Source: Flavobacteriaceae bacterium UBA5079 (lineage in GTDB: Bacteria; Bacteroidota; Bacteroidia; Flavobacteriales; Flavobacteriaceae). From it: a stretch of 11,598 nucleotides of DNA. The stretch spans positions 1-11,598 of the forward strand of contig DIAL01000115.1 in assembly GCA_002414705.1 (NCBI GenBank). The letters are read 5' to 3'. The stretch's first letter is position 1, and each line of letters opens with the position of its first letter. The notes under the pieces were generated by a model that was given only the letters and a program-made list of their open reading frames with translations, searched no databases and had not been told where the DNA came from. The position numbers were made by a program, and so were the translations under genes. This document shows positions 5,645-11,598 of this stretch, piece after piece.

Positions 5645-8020
5645 ATGAAAATAAACTACTGTCTAATAGTTATTTTGCTTTCGGCTTCATCATTTTCACA
5701 ACAGCGGAAAGCTTTCGAAAAATTTGATACAACAGGAATGGAAACTAGCATTTTGGTTCCACAGTCTCCAGTAGTAGATATTACAGCATACAATAGCAAA
5801 CCCATTAACACGTATAGGTTTTATCAAGCCTATAAAACCATTGCACAAAACGATTTTCAAGAACGCTTACAACCGCTTTCCAGTATTAAGAAAAAAAGTG
5901 AACAAAGTCATTTTACAAATACTATTCCTTTAGCTATTTTATATTCAGATTATGAATCTATCACAGAAAACGCACTTCGGAATCAAGCTGTAACGCGTGA
6001 CGCAAATGGCTCTTTAATTCGAAGAAACTCAAATGAAGTCATCTTTGAGCAAAACAGCATAGCCATTATTGCTCCTTTACGCAATAAACACAAAGGTTTA
6101 GAAACTACATTTGTTTTGACAGCAGATAATGTTTTTAACACGACAGAAAACGCTATCGCACAAATTGCTATAAATTTTGGAGATGGTCAAGATTTTAGAC
6201 CGATAAACATCGGTGAAAACACAAGAATTTCTTATCTCAATGATGGAAAAAAGACACTTACTTTTCAAATCACTTTAGATAATGGAACGATTATTAACCG
6301 TCAAGCAACTTTAGATATCACCTATTCCAATACCGATTTACAACGGAATTTTAATCGTGTAATTTCAACCTTCAATTCTACTATTACACCAGACCTTTCT
6401 ACTTATGGCGAAACCACATCTTATAACGGAACTGGAGAATATGAACTGTTTTTAAGTGCTGATAATATTTTAGATAAACCTATTATTTTAGTCGATGGTT
6501 TTGACCCAGATGATGGACGAGACATTGCTGGAATTTATGAATTACTAAATTTTGAACAAAATGGTACGACTTCCAATTTAGGCGATTTAGTTAGAGACGA
6601 AGGGTTTGATGTTGTTATATTAAATTTCCCAGTCTATACGCGAGCTGCCGATAACAAAGTTGTAGATGGTGGTGTCGATTTTATAGAGCGAAACGCCATG
6701 ATTTTAGTCGAATTAATAAATACCATTAACGCCCAAAAAATTGGCGTTGAAGAGAATGTGATTATTGGTCCTAGTATGGGTGGATTAATTTCTAGATACG
6801 CTTTAAACTATATGGAGAGTAATAGTTTAGACCATGAAACCAGACTGTGGATTTCTTTTGATGCACCGCATCATGGTGCTAATGTGCCCATTGGATTTCA
6901 ACATCAGTTTAATTTTTTAGCCTTTGGCTTGGATGATTTTGCCGTTTTAGGCGATCAAAACGTAGAAGAATTACAACCTATTATAGATGGTATGCTAACA
7001 TCTTCTGCTGCCAGACAAATGTTAGTTGATCAGTTTGAATCCCATATCACAAACAGTGATGGTGTAACCTTTAATAGCGCATTGGATTTACCACAAGAAC
7101 ATCCATTTAAAGCCATACTAGATTCAAGAATAAAAAATTTAACCAACTCTGGTTTTCCAGAATTAACCCGAAACATTACAATTAGTAACGGAAGTGGTGC
7201 AAACATACGATATCAAGATAACACAGCCTCTACTAACAATTTAAACCCTGGAAGTCGGATTCTAAATGCCAATATTGATGTTATTACAGGAGCGGAATTA
7301 AAAGCAGAAACACGCTTTACGCCCAATGCTGGAACACAAGTTTTTAGCAGTAAAGTTCATTTGGATTTTGCCTGGTGGTTTCCTTTAGCGAACGACCGCA
7401 TTAATAATGCCACATCAACAGCTCCTAGCTTTTCAAATGGCGTGGATGCTGCTTCTGGCGGATTATTTGATATTTTGAATTTAACTGCAGATTTATCAAC
7501 GGATGGATTGGTTGGCGATTTTCTAAATGCCTTGAGTACAGATTATTTTAATTTTATTCCAAGTGTGAGCTCCATGGCTTTTGAAATTACAAATAATGAG
7601 ATAAATTGGTTTCATACACCAAGCAACGTTACAACAGCTCGTGCAACCACCAACACAACACCTTTTGATGCCTGGTATATGCCAAATGAAAATGAACCAC
7701 ACGTTACTTTAACGCAACAAAACGTGGATTTTGCCATAAATGAAATTATTTTAGAAACTTTAGGCACAGATTCTTTTGATGGAAATTTTATAAAACTAGA
7801 ACAAAATCCGGTATTCCAAAACGTCACCATTTTATGTTCACAAGTTTATAAAAATTCAAAGGTATCTATTGTAGATGTTACTGGAAAACTTGTGTTGCAA
7901 TCAACAGTCGATTTAAACCAACGCACAACGATTCCGTTTCAACTGTCTTCTGGTTTATATATATTAAATATTGAAAGAGAAGGTAATCCGATTTTAAGAA
8001 CAAAATTATTGGTTAAATAA
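5645..8020 (+). CDS. Secreted lipase-like serine hydrolase with T9SS C-terminal sorting domain
   Basis: This 791-residue protein starts with a signal peptide (MKINYCLIVILLSASSFSQQ). Residues of about 20-160 are of unknown type. About 160-225 form a PKD-like beta domain with the characteristic NFGDG and a G-KTLTFQITLDNGT strand. An alpha/beta-hydrolase region follows: PIILVDGFDPDD (D284) sits where lipases carry the oxyanion-hole HG, the nucleophile elbow GPSMGG contains S377, and FDAPHHGANVP is the segment typical of PGAP1/lipase-like enzymes. The FNFIPSVSSMAFE stretch is also seen in Bacteroidetes relatives as I know them. H686 (NEPHVTL) is the likeliest catalytic histidine, with H657 the alternative. 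Residues 718-791 are a type A T9SS sorting domain (VSIVDVTGKLVLQS, SSGLYILNIE, KLLVK end), predicting export through T9SS to the surface or medium. The substrate, lipid or other ester, cannot be read from the sequence. Confidence 0.85.
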   Translation: MKINYCLIVILLSASSFSQQRKAFEKFDTTGMETSILVPQSPVVDITAYNSKPINTYRFYQAYKTIAQNDFQERLQPLSSIKKKSEQSHFTNTIPLAILYSDYESITENALRNQAVTRDANGSLIRRNSNEVIFEQNSIAIIAPLRNKHKGLETTFVLTADNVFNTTENAIAQIAINFGDGQDFRPINIGENTRISYLNDGKKTLTFQITLDNGTIINRQATLDITYSNTDLQRNFNRVISTFNSTITPDLSTYGETTSYNGTGEYELFLSADNILDKPIILVDGFDPDDGRDIAGIYELLNFEQNGTTSNLGDLVRDEGFDVVILNFPVYTRAADNKVVDGGVDFIERNAMILVELINTINAQKIGVEENVIIGPSMGGLISRYALNYMESNSLDHETRLWISFDAPHHGANVPIGFQHQFNFLAFGLDDFAVLGDQNVEELQPIIDGMLTSSAARQMLVDQFESHITNSDGVTFNSALDLPQEHPFKAILDSRIKNLTNSGFPELTRNITISNGSGANIRYQDNTASTNNLNPGSRILNANIDVITGAELKAETRFTPNAGTQVFSSKVHLDFAWWFPLANDRINNATSTAPSFSNGVDAASGGLFDILNLTADLSTDGLVGDFLNALSTDYFNFIPSVSSMAFEITNNEINWFHTPSNVTTARATTNTTPFDAWYMPNENEPHVTLTQQNVDFAINEIILETLGTDSFDGNFIKLEQNPVFQNVTILCSQVYKNSKVSIVDVTGKLVLQSTVDLNQRTTIPFQLSSGLYILNIEREGNPILRTKLLVK

Positions 8021-8052: not shown

Positions 8053-8173
8053 CGTCAATTCGAGTGAATTTTACGATTGAAAAAAGTAAAATTTGTATCG
8101 AGAATAAGAATTTGTTCTTTAAATTAGTTCTCGATACGATTTGTTCGTACCTCAAAAATCACTCGAACTGACG
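8053..8173 (-). repeat. Cloverleaf-shaped palindromic repeat, copy 1 (inverted relative to copies 2 and 3)
   Basis: The outer stem pairs 8053-8066 with 8160-8173 (13 of 14 pairs). Inside it are three arms: AATTTTAC/GTAAAATT (8067-8074 with 8086-8093), GTATCGAGAA/TTCTCGATAC (8095-8104 with 8128-8137, with a small AAGAA/TTCTT hairpin at 8106-8119 in its tip), and ATTTGT against AAAAAT (8139-8144 with 8154-8159, 5 of 6 pairs). Single unpaired bases (8094 and 8138) separate the arms. It sits in the 3' region of the lipase-like gene, before the shared terminator. The reverse complement shares GAGGTACGAACAAAT exactly with copy 2. Confidence 0.85.
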
Positions 8174-8276: not shown

Positions 8277-8906
8277 TTATCCCTTAAATTTAATGGGTAA
8301 ATGAACCACCTTTTTAGTATCGAAAAATGCTTCTGAATAAAAATCTGAAATGTTATAAATGGTGGCTGTTCTATAATCTTGAAGCTCTTCAGATAAATCG
8401 CCTCCTTTTAAATAGAGAATGCCATTTTTAAGATCATGATTTTGTTTTTTGGCCACGCGTCCTTTTATCCAATGCACAAAAGTTGGCATAGCTGCAACGG
8501 CTCTACTAATTATAAAATCATAGGTATCTTTAATGTCTTCAACGCGAGTGTGTGTGGTTTTTACATTGGTTAATTCTAAACCAGCAACAACCTCATCCAC
8601 CACTTTCAACTTTTTAGCAATACTATCCACCAAATGAAACGAACATTCTGGAAATAAAATAGCCAACGGAATGCCTGGAAATCCACCACCAGTTCCAACA
8701 TCCATCAATTTGGTTCCGGGCTTAAATTCTATCACCTTCGCAATAGCTAAAGCATGTAAAACGTGACGTAAATACAACTCATCAATATCTTTTCTGGACA
8801 CCACATTAATCTTCAAATTCCAGTCTTGATATAAGGTTTCCAATAGCGTAAATTTGGCAATCTGATCGTCTGTTAAGTTTGGGAAATACTTTAAAATAAG
8901 CTCCAT
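8277..8906 (-). CDS. rsmG: RsmG, 16S rRNA (guanine527-N7)-methyltransferase
   Basis: The product is 209 residues, the normal size for RsmG (GidB), a cytoplasmic SAM-dependent enzyme that methylates N7 of G527 (E. coli numbering) in 16S rRNA; loss of this modification is known to give low-level streptomycin resistance. The Rossmann motif I is DVGTGGGFPGIPLA (residues 69-82), the acidic residue that binds the SAM ribose is D94 in HLVDS, and the SRAVA motif (134-138, with R135) is diagnostic for the family. The N-terminal helix region with QDWNLKINVVSRKD and LRHVLHALA is also typical. It converges on the lipase-like gene and shares its terminator, and it diverges from the desaturase. A -7 element ends only 17 bases before the start, so the leader is very short. 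Confidence 0.95.
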   Translation of the reverse strand: MELILKYFPNLTDDQIAKFTLLETLYQDWNLKINVVSRKDIDELYLRHVLHALAIAKVIEFKPGTKLMDVGTGGGFPGIPLAILFPECSFHLVDSIAKKLKVVDEVVAGLELTNVKTTHTRVEDIKDTYDFIISRAVAAMPTFVHWIKGRVAKKQNHDLKNGILYLKGGDLSEELQDYRTATIYNISDFYSEAFFDTKKVVHLPIKFKG

Positions 8907-10176: not shown

Positions 10177-11364
10177 ATGAATGTTCTTTCAGATAGAGTT
10201 TTAAACATGGCCACGTCTGCCACGTTAGCTATGGCAGCAAAAACCCGCGAATTACGTGCGGAAGGCAAAGATATTATTGGGTTAAGTTTGGGTGAACCAG
10301 ATTTCAATACGCCAGATTATATTAAAGAAGCAGCCATTCAGGCTATTCATGATAATTACAGTTCGTACACACCAGTTGATGGCTATGTAGAATTGAAACA
10401 AGCTATTATCACCAAATTTAAACGAGATAATAACGTAACATATACCTTACCACAGATTGTAGTGTCTACTGGTGCTAAACAGGCACTTTATAATGTAGCA
10501 CAAGTGATGATTAATCCGGGTGATGAAGTTATTTTACCCTGTCCGTATTGGGTTAGTTATGCAGATATAGTTGAACTTGCAGAAGGTGTTCCGGTTGAAG
10601 TACCAACCAGTATTGCTACCGATTTTAAAATGACACCTGCACAATTAGAAGCCGCTATTACACCCAAAACAAAAATGATTTGGTACAGCTCACCTTGCAA
10701 CCCAAGTGGTTCGCTTTATAGCAAAGCCGAATTGCGTGCTTTGGCTGATGTACTTCAAAAATATCCAAACATTTATGTGGTTTCAGATGAAATCTATGAA
10801 CATATCAACTTCACCGAAGAAGGTCATGCAAGTATGGCACAGTTTCCTGATATGTTTGATAGAACCATAACTATAAACGGTGTTTCCAAAGCCTTTGCTA
10901 TGACGGGCTGGCGAATTGGTTATTTAGGTGCGCCAGAAAACATAGCACGCGCTTGCAACAAAATGCAAGGTCAGGTTACAAGTGGTGCCAACAGTATTGC
11001 GCAACGTGCAGTTATTACAGCTTTAAACGAATCACCAACACGAGTAAAATTCATGGTAGATGAATTTAAAATTCGTCGGGATTTGGTGTTAACCTTATTA
11101 AATGATGTGCCTGGATTTATCAATAACACACCTGAAGGTGCGTTTTATGTATTTCCAAATATTTCGGCTTTCTTTGGAAAAACGTTAAAAGGAACACCCA
11201 TAAATAATGCAACAGATTTCTCCTTATTCTTATTAGAACATGCCTTGGTAGCAACCGTTACAGGTGATGCCTTTGGCGATCCAAATTGCATTCGCTTATC
11301 GTATGCGGCTAGTCAGGCACAAATTATAGAGGCTATTAAGCGTATTAAAGAGGCAGTATCCTAA
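10177..11364 (+). CDS. PLP-dependent class I/II aminotransferase, aspartate aminotransferase-like
   Basis: The 395-residue product is a fold-type I aminotransferase of the size and style of bacterial aspartate aminotransferase subgroup Ib. Landmarks are SLGEPDFNTPDYI (about 37-49), the STGAKQALYN cofactor-phosphate region, CNPSGSLYS with N175, VSDEIYEH with D204 (pairs with the PLP pyridine nitrogen), the Schiff-base lysine K238 in GVSKAFAMTGWRIGYLGAP, and R373 in CIRLSYAAS, which binds the substrate alpha-carboxylate. It would exchange amino groups between aspartate (or a related amino acid) and 2-oxoglutarate in the cytoplasm; prephenate or aromatic substrates are possible, as in some subgroup Ib enzymes. 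The 33-base gap to the desaturase has no terminator or good promoter, so co-transcription is likely although the functions look unrelated. No terminator follows before the repeats at 11413. Confidence 0.93.
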   Translation: MNVLSDRVLNMATSATLAMAAKTRELRAEGKDIIGLSLGEPDFNTPDYIKEAAIQAIHDNYSSYTPVDGYVELKQAIITKFKRDNNVTYTLPQIVVSTGAKQALYNVAQVMINPGDEVILPCPYWVSYADIVELAEGVPVEVPTSIATDFKMTPAQLEAAITPKTKMIWYSSPCNPSGSLYSKAELRALADVLQKYPNIYVVSDEIYEHINFTEEGHASMAQFPDMFDRTITINGVSKAFAMTGWRIGYLGAPENIARACNKMQGQVTSGANSIAQRAVITALNESPTRVKFMVDEFKIRRDLVLTLLNDVPGFINNTPEGAFYVFPNISAFFGKTLKGTPINNATDFSLFLLEHALVATVTGDAFGDPNCIRLSYAASQAQIIEAIKRIKEAVS

Positions 11365-11412
11365 ATTTTTAATAGTCTTTATAAGCTTAAATAGATTTTA
11401 GAGACCAGAACA

Positions 11413-11516
11413 CCCGTCAGCTCGAGTGATTTGTGAGGTACGAACAAATGGTATCGACATCTCGATACAATTTTTTTCCTTGCTTCCGCAGTAAAAAAAT
11501 CACTCGACGTGACGGG
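11413..11516 (+). repeat. Cloverleaf-shaped palindromic repeat, copy 2
   Basis: The outer stem pairs 11413-11428 with 11501-11516 (14 of 16 pairs, ending CCC/GGG). Three arms follow one another inside it: ATTTGT/ACAAAT (11429-11434 with 11444-11449), GTATCGA/TCGATAC (11451-11457 with 11462-11468, tetraloop CATC), and ATTTTTTT/AAAAAAAT (11470-11477 with 11493-11500), the last with an inner TGC/GCA hairpin at 11481-11490. Only bases 11450 and 11469 at the junction are unpaired. It lies 48 bases after the aminotransferase stop. Confidence 0.88.
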
Positions 11517-11558
11517 GCTACATATATTCTTAATTTCTCTTTTTTAATTAGGTCTGAA

Positions 11559-11598
11559 CGTCAGCTCGAGTGATTTGGCTTTGGCCAAATGGTATCGA
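11559..11598 (+). repeat. Cloverleaf-shaped palindromic repeat, copy 3 (5' part; cut by window edge)
   Basis: The sequence repeats copy 2 in the same orientation: the left outer arm CGTCAGCTCGAGTG (11559-11572), a first arm ATTTGG/CCAAAT (11573-11578 with 11585-11590), one spacer base, and GTATCGA (11592-11598), the left half of the second arm, where the window stops. The first arm is 18 bases rather than 21, and its tip is unlike those of the other copies. Confidence 0.8.

Follow-up and report, generated by a model that had tools for sequence, protein, structure and literature searches.

CGTC-tagged REPs are extragenic palindromes with a CGTC or TGTC tag at one end and are found also in Bacteroidetes (Di Nocera et al. 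2013, PMC3733652). According to the available excerpts of that study, they have stems of 8-9 bp starting with A-T pairs, loops of 4-5 nt and a CCA-like tail, and they form dimers, most commonly head-to-head and in part mixed (heterodimers). The excerpts name no dedicated enzyme and leave open which enzyme, if any, mobilises these palindromes (PMC3733652). The units described here, from a stretch of 11,598 nt of the Flavobacteriaceae bacterium UBA5079 (the window; the bacterium is referred to as the host), have the tag and the dimer features in common with the CGTC REPs. They differ in the stem, which has 4 bp starting with G-C or C-G and is followed by a GA/GA core, in the loop, whose place is taken by a large variable inner hairpin, and in the absence of a CCA-type tail. 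They also differ in having an enzyme gene, a GIY-YIG gene that is bracketed by units (exact units at 30/30, 18/20 and 62/80 loci).

With the GTAG REPs and their BIMEs, REPINs and RAYTs, as far as the available parts of that literature describe them (PMC3733652, PMC6006769; further papers include PMC3116915 and PMC2817692), the units share dispersed inverted pairs, a tag at the foot of the hairpin and a gene flanked by its own repeats. The organisation thus resembles that of REPINs, but without a RAYT: the tag is YGTCA rather than GTAG, no Y1 transposase was found in the host or beside the units, and the flanked gene encodes a GIY-YIG nuclease. Sequence relatives of this nuclease, the UPF0213 proteins BH0048 and EF2693, have solved structures and are named 'hypothetical'. 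Among the literature matches listed, none linked GIY-YIG proteins with REP or palindromic elements; those for the unit strings were unrelated by title, and strings of a sister repeat described below were absent.

The Ssn family reportedly comprises single-strand-specific, site-specific GIY-YIG nucleases tied to the NTS repeats of Neisseria. The likeness lies in a small GIY-YIG protein tied to a many-copy palindromic repeat; the bracketing of the gene and the tandem-GA plan were seen in this analysis. By this analogy, an Ssn-like nuclease may serve as the nearest working model, and parts of the system of units and GIY-YIG protein may already be covered by the work on Ssn.

The cloverleaf is a pair of REP-like units

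In agreement with the original prediction of a cloverleaf, an outer stem with two mismatches enclosing three arms is the optimal DNA fold of positions 11405-11525, with a minimum free energy of -26.9 kcal/mol (z -6.77; 0/200 shuffles as low). Folded as RNA, the same stretch is likewise more stable than its shuffles (-44.4, z -6.63, 0/200 as low). Under RNA parameters the optimal structure differs and has one long arm, and the cloverleaf is a sub-optimum at -40.7. No Rfam 15 family reached its gathering score in the window, and nothing specific favours a reading as structured RNA.

The elementary unit is a small REP-like hairpin repeat, and the cloverleaf is a tail-to-tail pair of two such units (Table 1). 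The three arms had been taken to separate the element from REP hairpins, which is not supported: two REP-like units each contribute their inner hairpin (arms 1 and 3), arm 2 is formed where both 3' ends meet, and the outer stem consists of the 5' ends of units 1 and 2. The two central mismatches of this stem (GC against CG) are the stem bases in which the two units differ. Unit 1 is without its 3' stem arm, as the next bases, CATC, belong to unit 2, and hence it is a decayed copy; elsewhere in the host genome, 43-nt stretches are 93-98% identical to it (BLAST). The stem of unit 2 consists of three Watson-Crick pairs and one G-T pair. The unusually tidy shape of the cloverleaf is accounted for by a decayed pair in which the spacer is gone and the two units are fused.

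The element lies 50 nt past the stop codon of the ORF at 10177-11364. A second tail-to-tail pair (8053-8173), located between the ORFs at 5645-8020 (+) and 8277-8906 (-), is better preserved than the first, and pairs of the same subtype are found in other genera, where their flanks are mostly unrelated.

Table 1. Units and pairs in the window.
Feature	Position	Strand	Description	Basis
Unit 1	11415..11457	+	tag CGTCA, stem GCTC, GAG, inner hairpin ATTTGT/ACAAAT, CGA	sequence, fold
Unit 2, inverted	11458..11514	-	tag CGTCA, stem CGTC, GAG, inner hairpin, CGA, GATG	sequence, fold
Cloverleaf	11413..11516	.	units 1 and 2 tail to tail, no spacer	fold, sequence
Third unit	11559..11598	+	truncated at the contig end, right after CGA	BLAST, sequence
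Second pair, first unit	8053..8105	+	AATT-type stem, first pair A-T; CGTCAATTCGAG ... CGAGAAT	
Second pair, spacer	8106-8126		21 nt	
Second pair, partner unit	8127..8173	-	CGTCAGTTCGAG ... CGAGAAC	

Anatomy of the unit

Further copies, as the original prediction required, are present in the host genome: BLAST gave 19 partial matches (the query itself counted), and the exact pattern found 28 units versus 0 for a reversed control pattern. Exact units occur at least once in 41 of the 99 genomes of one set and in 156 of the 299 family genomes of another; the host belongs to both. The unit follows the plan YGTCA, 4-bp stem, GAG, variable inner hairpin or loop, CGA, complement of the stem, with cores of varying length. 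Its borders are sharp. The 194 distinct exact-pattern units from the gathered loci read Y-GTCA, S, TTCGAGT, variable part, TATCGAGA, A, S', where 185 units have C or T at position -6, and the next positions are G in 183, T in 187 and C in 183. Beyond S' (positions +3 to +12), no strong consensus was seen in these 194 units.

Two features of the unit co-vary. Among the 190 units in which A precedes S', the first stem pair, S-S', is complementary in 177, as G-C in 107, C-G in 64, T-A in 4 and A-T in 2, and non-complementary in 13; these units are related and hence are no independent events. The inner part also pairs with itself, and co-variation of the arms is thereby borne out: over 175 distinct inner parts the longest Watson-Crick run averages 5.78 bases, versus 3.53 after exchange of the 3' halves between units (at most 3.80 in 200 swaps). 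As the inner hairpins differ in length and sequence, swapped mates and permuted motifs were used as controls in place of a covariance model.

A GIY-YIG nuclease gene is bracketed by units

On contig 168 of the host, the gene of a small GIY-YIG nuclease lies between units: upstream, about 15 nt separate the end of the nearest unit from the start codon, and downstream an inverted unit follows the stop directly. The protein of 96 residues matches PF01541 over residues 4-76 (58.9 bits, cut-off 22.6) and has no NCBIfam match; its relatives include BH0048 (PDB 1zg2, E 2e-13) and EF2693 (PDB 1ywl, E 8e-9). In 12 aligned members of the subfamily, GIY-YIG residues are invariant that we take to be of the catalytic type.

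Loci of homologues were gathered by comparing the host protein with the 299 family genomes and picking the best matches by the protein alone; the best 30 include the host and loci in G001, G031 and G034, for which the arrangement was already known. Exact units were found within 1.5 kb at 30 of these 30 loci, at 18 of 20 loci of ranks 31-50, and at none of 20 loci of ranks 51-70 (loose matches at two). As controls, the best 30 PF01541 loci of other GIY-YIG proteins gave exact units at two and loose ones at four, and the best 30 Y1_Tnp loci gave none and one, respectively. In ranks 1-50, units lie on both sides within 500 nt at 45 loci, form a +/- bracket at 30, lie on one side at two and were not found at three, one of which (L202) has exact-core units by another pattern. 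Units often abut the start and stop codons of the homologues. By shared neighbouring ORFs, the best 30 loci form 21 groups, that is, 21 unrelated neighbourhoods.

A similar picture was obtained for named genomes, in which the best 80 of 535 confirmed loci, some coinciding with loci from the 299-genome set, have an exact unit in 62 cases, a loose one in 66, a +/- bracket within 300 nt in 32 and none on either side in 14. They are mostly from Flavobacteriaceae (Winogradskyella, Tamlana, Polaribacter, Maribacter, Flavobacterium and others), and the few from MAGs of Cytophagales, Bacteroidales and Ignavibacteriales were without an exact unit.

Gene and units also occur together at the level of genomes. 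Of the 47 family genomes that carry a subfamily gene, 46 have at least three exact units, versus 57 of the 252 others (Fisher p 5e-24, relatedness ignored), with the threshold of three units and the definition of a subfamily gene (E <= 3e-32) chosen in this analysis. These 57 genomes, in which units are present but no subfamily gene was detected, are a real exception and weaken a strict pairing of gene and units. Four genomes, G222, G246, G238 and G252, have 37-109 exact units and no subfamily GIY-YIG match at E <= 3e-32; a diverged enzyme, a loss or another enzyme may account for this. As the units of one genome and the proteins of one clade are related, the counts of units and proteins are not independent. 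At two loci (L128 and L132) the GIY-YIG frames continue in tails that resemble repeats (SAQPP, LPEPVEG), as though palindromes had been translated, and such tails may be common misannotations.

A general architecture and its stem classes

The loci of ranks 51-70, which represent a sister clade, share another palindrome, typically TGTCACACTGAGCGCAGTCGAAGTG, with a 10-mer of TGTCACACTGAGCGCAGTCGAAGTG at 17 of the 20 loci and the form ACTGAG...CGAAGT at 15. It shares the plan YGTCA, N4, GAG, loop, CGA, N4'. As GTCA-N-ACTGAG...CGAAGT, this sister repeat occurs in 78 of the 299 family genomes and not in the host, and its loops (L211-L230) are of two kinds, CGCAGT-like and CTTGT/CCTGT-like.

Scanning for the general plan YGTCA-N4-GAG-...-CGA-N4' with exact complement of the stem gave matches at 30/30 loci of ranks 1-30, 20/20 of ranks 31-50, 19/20 of ranks 51-70 and 73/80 in the named genomes, compared with 12 of the best 30 PF01541 loci (18 without a match) and 0/30 Y1_Tnp loci. 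With the stems GTTC and CTTC left out, 138 matches remain, whereas none of 23 permuted tags gave a match and none of 161 other cores that were tried gave more than one. There are 33 different compensated stems, 32 of them with a pyrimidine adjoining GA. When complementarity is not required, 150 GIY-YIG loci contain 762 YGTCA-N4-GAG halves, 543 of which have a fully complementary tail; of the 695 halves with any CGA tail in reach, these 543 match at 4/4 positions, 81 at three and 71 at fewer.

RNA folding of 25 units mostly gave an outer stem in a different register, with TTCGA paired to TCGAG, which counts against the explanation preferred below. The co-variation of S-S' and the 33 compensated stems led us to prefer the S-S' register. 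Tandem G-A pairs occur in DNA, and the GA/GA between N4 and N4' can form them.

The stem class follows the protein. On a quick and poorly resolved tree of 164 GIY-YIG proteins (95 columns; 131 labelled rows, after removal of 6 mixed and 27 match-free ones), the inner stem bases switch between the classes TC and CT 6 times compared with 24.7 times for shuffled labels (0/500), and the label "GTTC/CTTC or other" changes 17 times compared with 41.2 (0/500). Such clustering is also expected if repeat and gene were simply co-inherited.

Arrangement and distribution of units

Neighbours within 150 nt were counted in 38 stretches (29 GIY-YIG loci and nine host stretches including the window) with 175 loosely matched units. 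Head-to-head neighbours are the most frequent (53), followed by tail-to-tail (33) and direct ones (18); units are also found singly and in direct tandem. Of the head-to-head pairs, 36 combine S=G with S=C, three are GG, one is CC, and 13 have another or an unread letter. Tail-to-tail pairs are mixed in 24 cases, GG in three and other in six, so that 24 of 27 typed pairs are mixed. No mixed pair was found among the direct neighbours (11 GG, 4 CC, 3 with an unread letter). In a mixed pair the stem of each unit is intact and the joint stem of the cloverleaf is mismatched; hence, and this is the main argument, it is the hairpin of the unit rather than the junction that is maintained.

The spacers of the 33 tail-to-tail pairs range from 0 to 57 nt, and the window pair is the only one with a spacer of 0. 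Tail-to-tail pairs of 97-145 bp recur in other genomes. Of 20 fetched stretches 19 were parsed; inspection by eye shows mostly unrelated flanks, and some of the stretches resemble GAATTTTATCAAAA on one side. No target duplication was recognised at these 19 stretches, and no exact empty site was found among them or at the congener sites.

At the latter, the pair at 11413-11516 is missing in 5/5 congeners (700 nt read after the counterpart of the ORF at 10177-11364), all five of which have a terminator-like hairpin after this counterpart. The second pair is also missing in 5/5 (480 nt read after the counterpart of the ORF at 8277-8906), and the architecture scan found no match at 10 congener loci. 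In another family of the order, one genome (G071; contig 7, 184332-184830) has 65 exact units, some in direct tandem with a period of 113 bases. Carriage on plasmids was considered and rejected: the element was without a match in 72,556 plasmid records at E 1e-3, and the GIY-YIG relatives on plasmids (2 records in one search, 12 in another) are all less than 60% identical, with no YGTCA-N4-GAG half at two alphaproteobacterial plasmid loci.

Host contigs 9 and 39 (L020, L021 and L022) contain direct tandem arrays of alternating units that differ greatly in their inner hairpins and are linked by a repeated ATCGAGAAC-like joint. In L021 a long run of N (a gap or masked, at about 2600-2830) separates unit-bearing stretches, so that this array is readable in part. 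The contig end of the window (11559-11598) falls inside a unit, and arrays lie at several contig ends, including those of contigs 9 and 39 (L020, L022). The assembly probably breaks at unit arrays, and the unit counts are therefore lower bounds.

Discussion

The anatomy of the unit, its co-variation, the bracketing of the gene, the tie between stem class and enzyme clade, the many unrelated neighbourhoods and the absence in congeners are direct observations; from these we infer binding and cutting by the enzyme, the state of the DNA strand and the mode of movement. Judged from the sequences, the host-type GIY-YIG nuclease is likely the enzyme that recognises and spreads the units. We somewhat favour the explanation that the unit, in single-stranded DNA, is the recognition hairpin of its cognate GIY-YIG nuclease, and that a minimal mobile element is represented in the window by a decayed pair that carries no gene. 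YGTCA would be the tag read by the nuclease, the GA/GA core a shape mark, and the TC or CT next to it the specificity letters. The nuclease would cut the unit in DNA that is single-stranded in replication, transformation or repair, and repair or template switching after the cut would spread the units. A nuclease gene inside two inverted units would represent the self-carrying form, and gene-less tail-to-tail pairs its dispersed miniature form. From the original description, the repeated and structured nature of the element is borne out, and its mobility is probable. Against the preferred explanation we also count the 14/80 named-genome and 3/50 other loci that have no nearby unit by the pattern used, the 18 of the best 30 PF01541 loci without a match to the general architecture, the fact that neither a target duplication nor an exact empty site was found at the sites inspected, and the degenerate state of the window copy.

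The nuclease might instead act in defence or uptake control, cutting incoming single-stranded DNA at hairpins, with the units as landmarks under host selection and the bracketing due to hitch-hiking with recombining DNA rather than transposition. The model for this is the study of Ssn, in which the nuclease is said to act in Neisseria transformation. The association of gene and units would fit this as well, and units are also found far from the gene; the units that almost touch start and stop codons in 21 unrelated neighbourhoods, and the tail-to-tail pairs, which are alike in length but mostly differ in their flanks, look mobile, however, and we consider this explanation improbable. We regard it as very unlikely that function resides in the four-way junction or cloverleaf as such, in DNA or in RNA, be it as a protein-binding junction, a terminator or an element stabilising mRNA, although the cloverleaf is the DNA optimum and is located 50 nt past the stop of the ORF at 10177-11364, where 5/5 congeners have a terminator-like hairpin. 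Of the 27 typed tail-to-tail pairs, 24 have a mismatch in the outer stem at the position that defines the stem type, units occur singly and in direct tandem as well, the spacers vary from 0 to 57 nt and the RNA optimum is another fold; the junction as a functional object, as it was originally conceived, is thus not upheld.

Inverted pairs and arrays also resemble BIMEs and REPINs, and the units could belong to the ordinary REP/BIME elements that a RAYT (Y1 tyrosine transposase) mobilises, such as one of Bacteroidetes subclass 2.6, with the link to GIY-YIG being incidental. A Y1_Tnp match is present in 40 of 99 genomes (host in the set), and atypical flanking structures are reported for subclass 2.6 in Bacteroidetes in the available part of PMC6006769. 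Yet the host, which is 88% complete, is without a Y1_Tnp match, as are G034 and G029 with 31 and 32 units, and the best Y1_Tnp loci have an exact unit in 0/30 cases, a loose one in 1/30 and the general architecture in 0/30. With no match in the host and no exact unit at the best 30 Y1_Tnp loci, Y1_Tnp was set aside as the mobiliser, and we hold an incidental link to GIY-YIG to be distinctly unlikely.

Returning to the cognate GIY-YIG nuclease, a broader and more tentative proposal, for which we see slightly less than an even chance, is that Bacteroidota harbour a class of minimal, transposase-free mobile elements composed of YGTCA/tandem-GA hairpins and a GIY-YIG protein of about 96 residues. 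In these, the enzyme would read the two stem bases next to the GA core (TC or CT), and bases and enzyme would have diversified together; the outer two bases would need only to pair, and the gene-less pairs would be miniatures.

The analysis ties a protein family to CGTC-type palindromes by position, co-occurrence and shared diversification of the stem. If the proposed role of the nuclease is true, an enzyme would be supplied for palindromes that were enzyme-less in 2013, and two bases of the hairpin are predicted to determine which nuclease cuts. Short palindromes would then have a transposase-free route to spread in bacterial genomes, and the site-specific single-strand nucleases could serve as tools.
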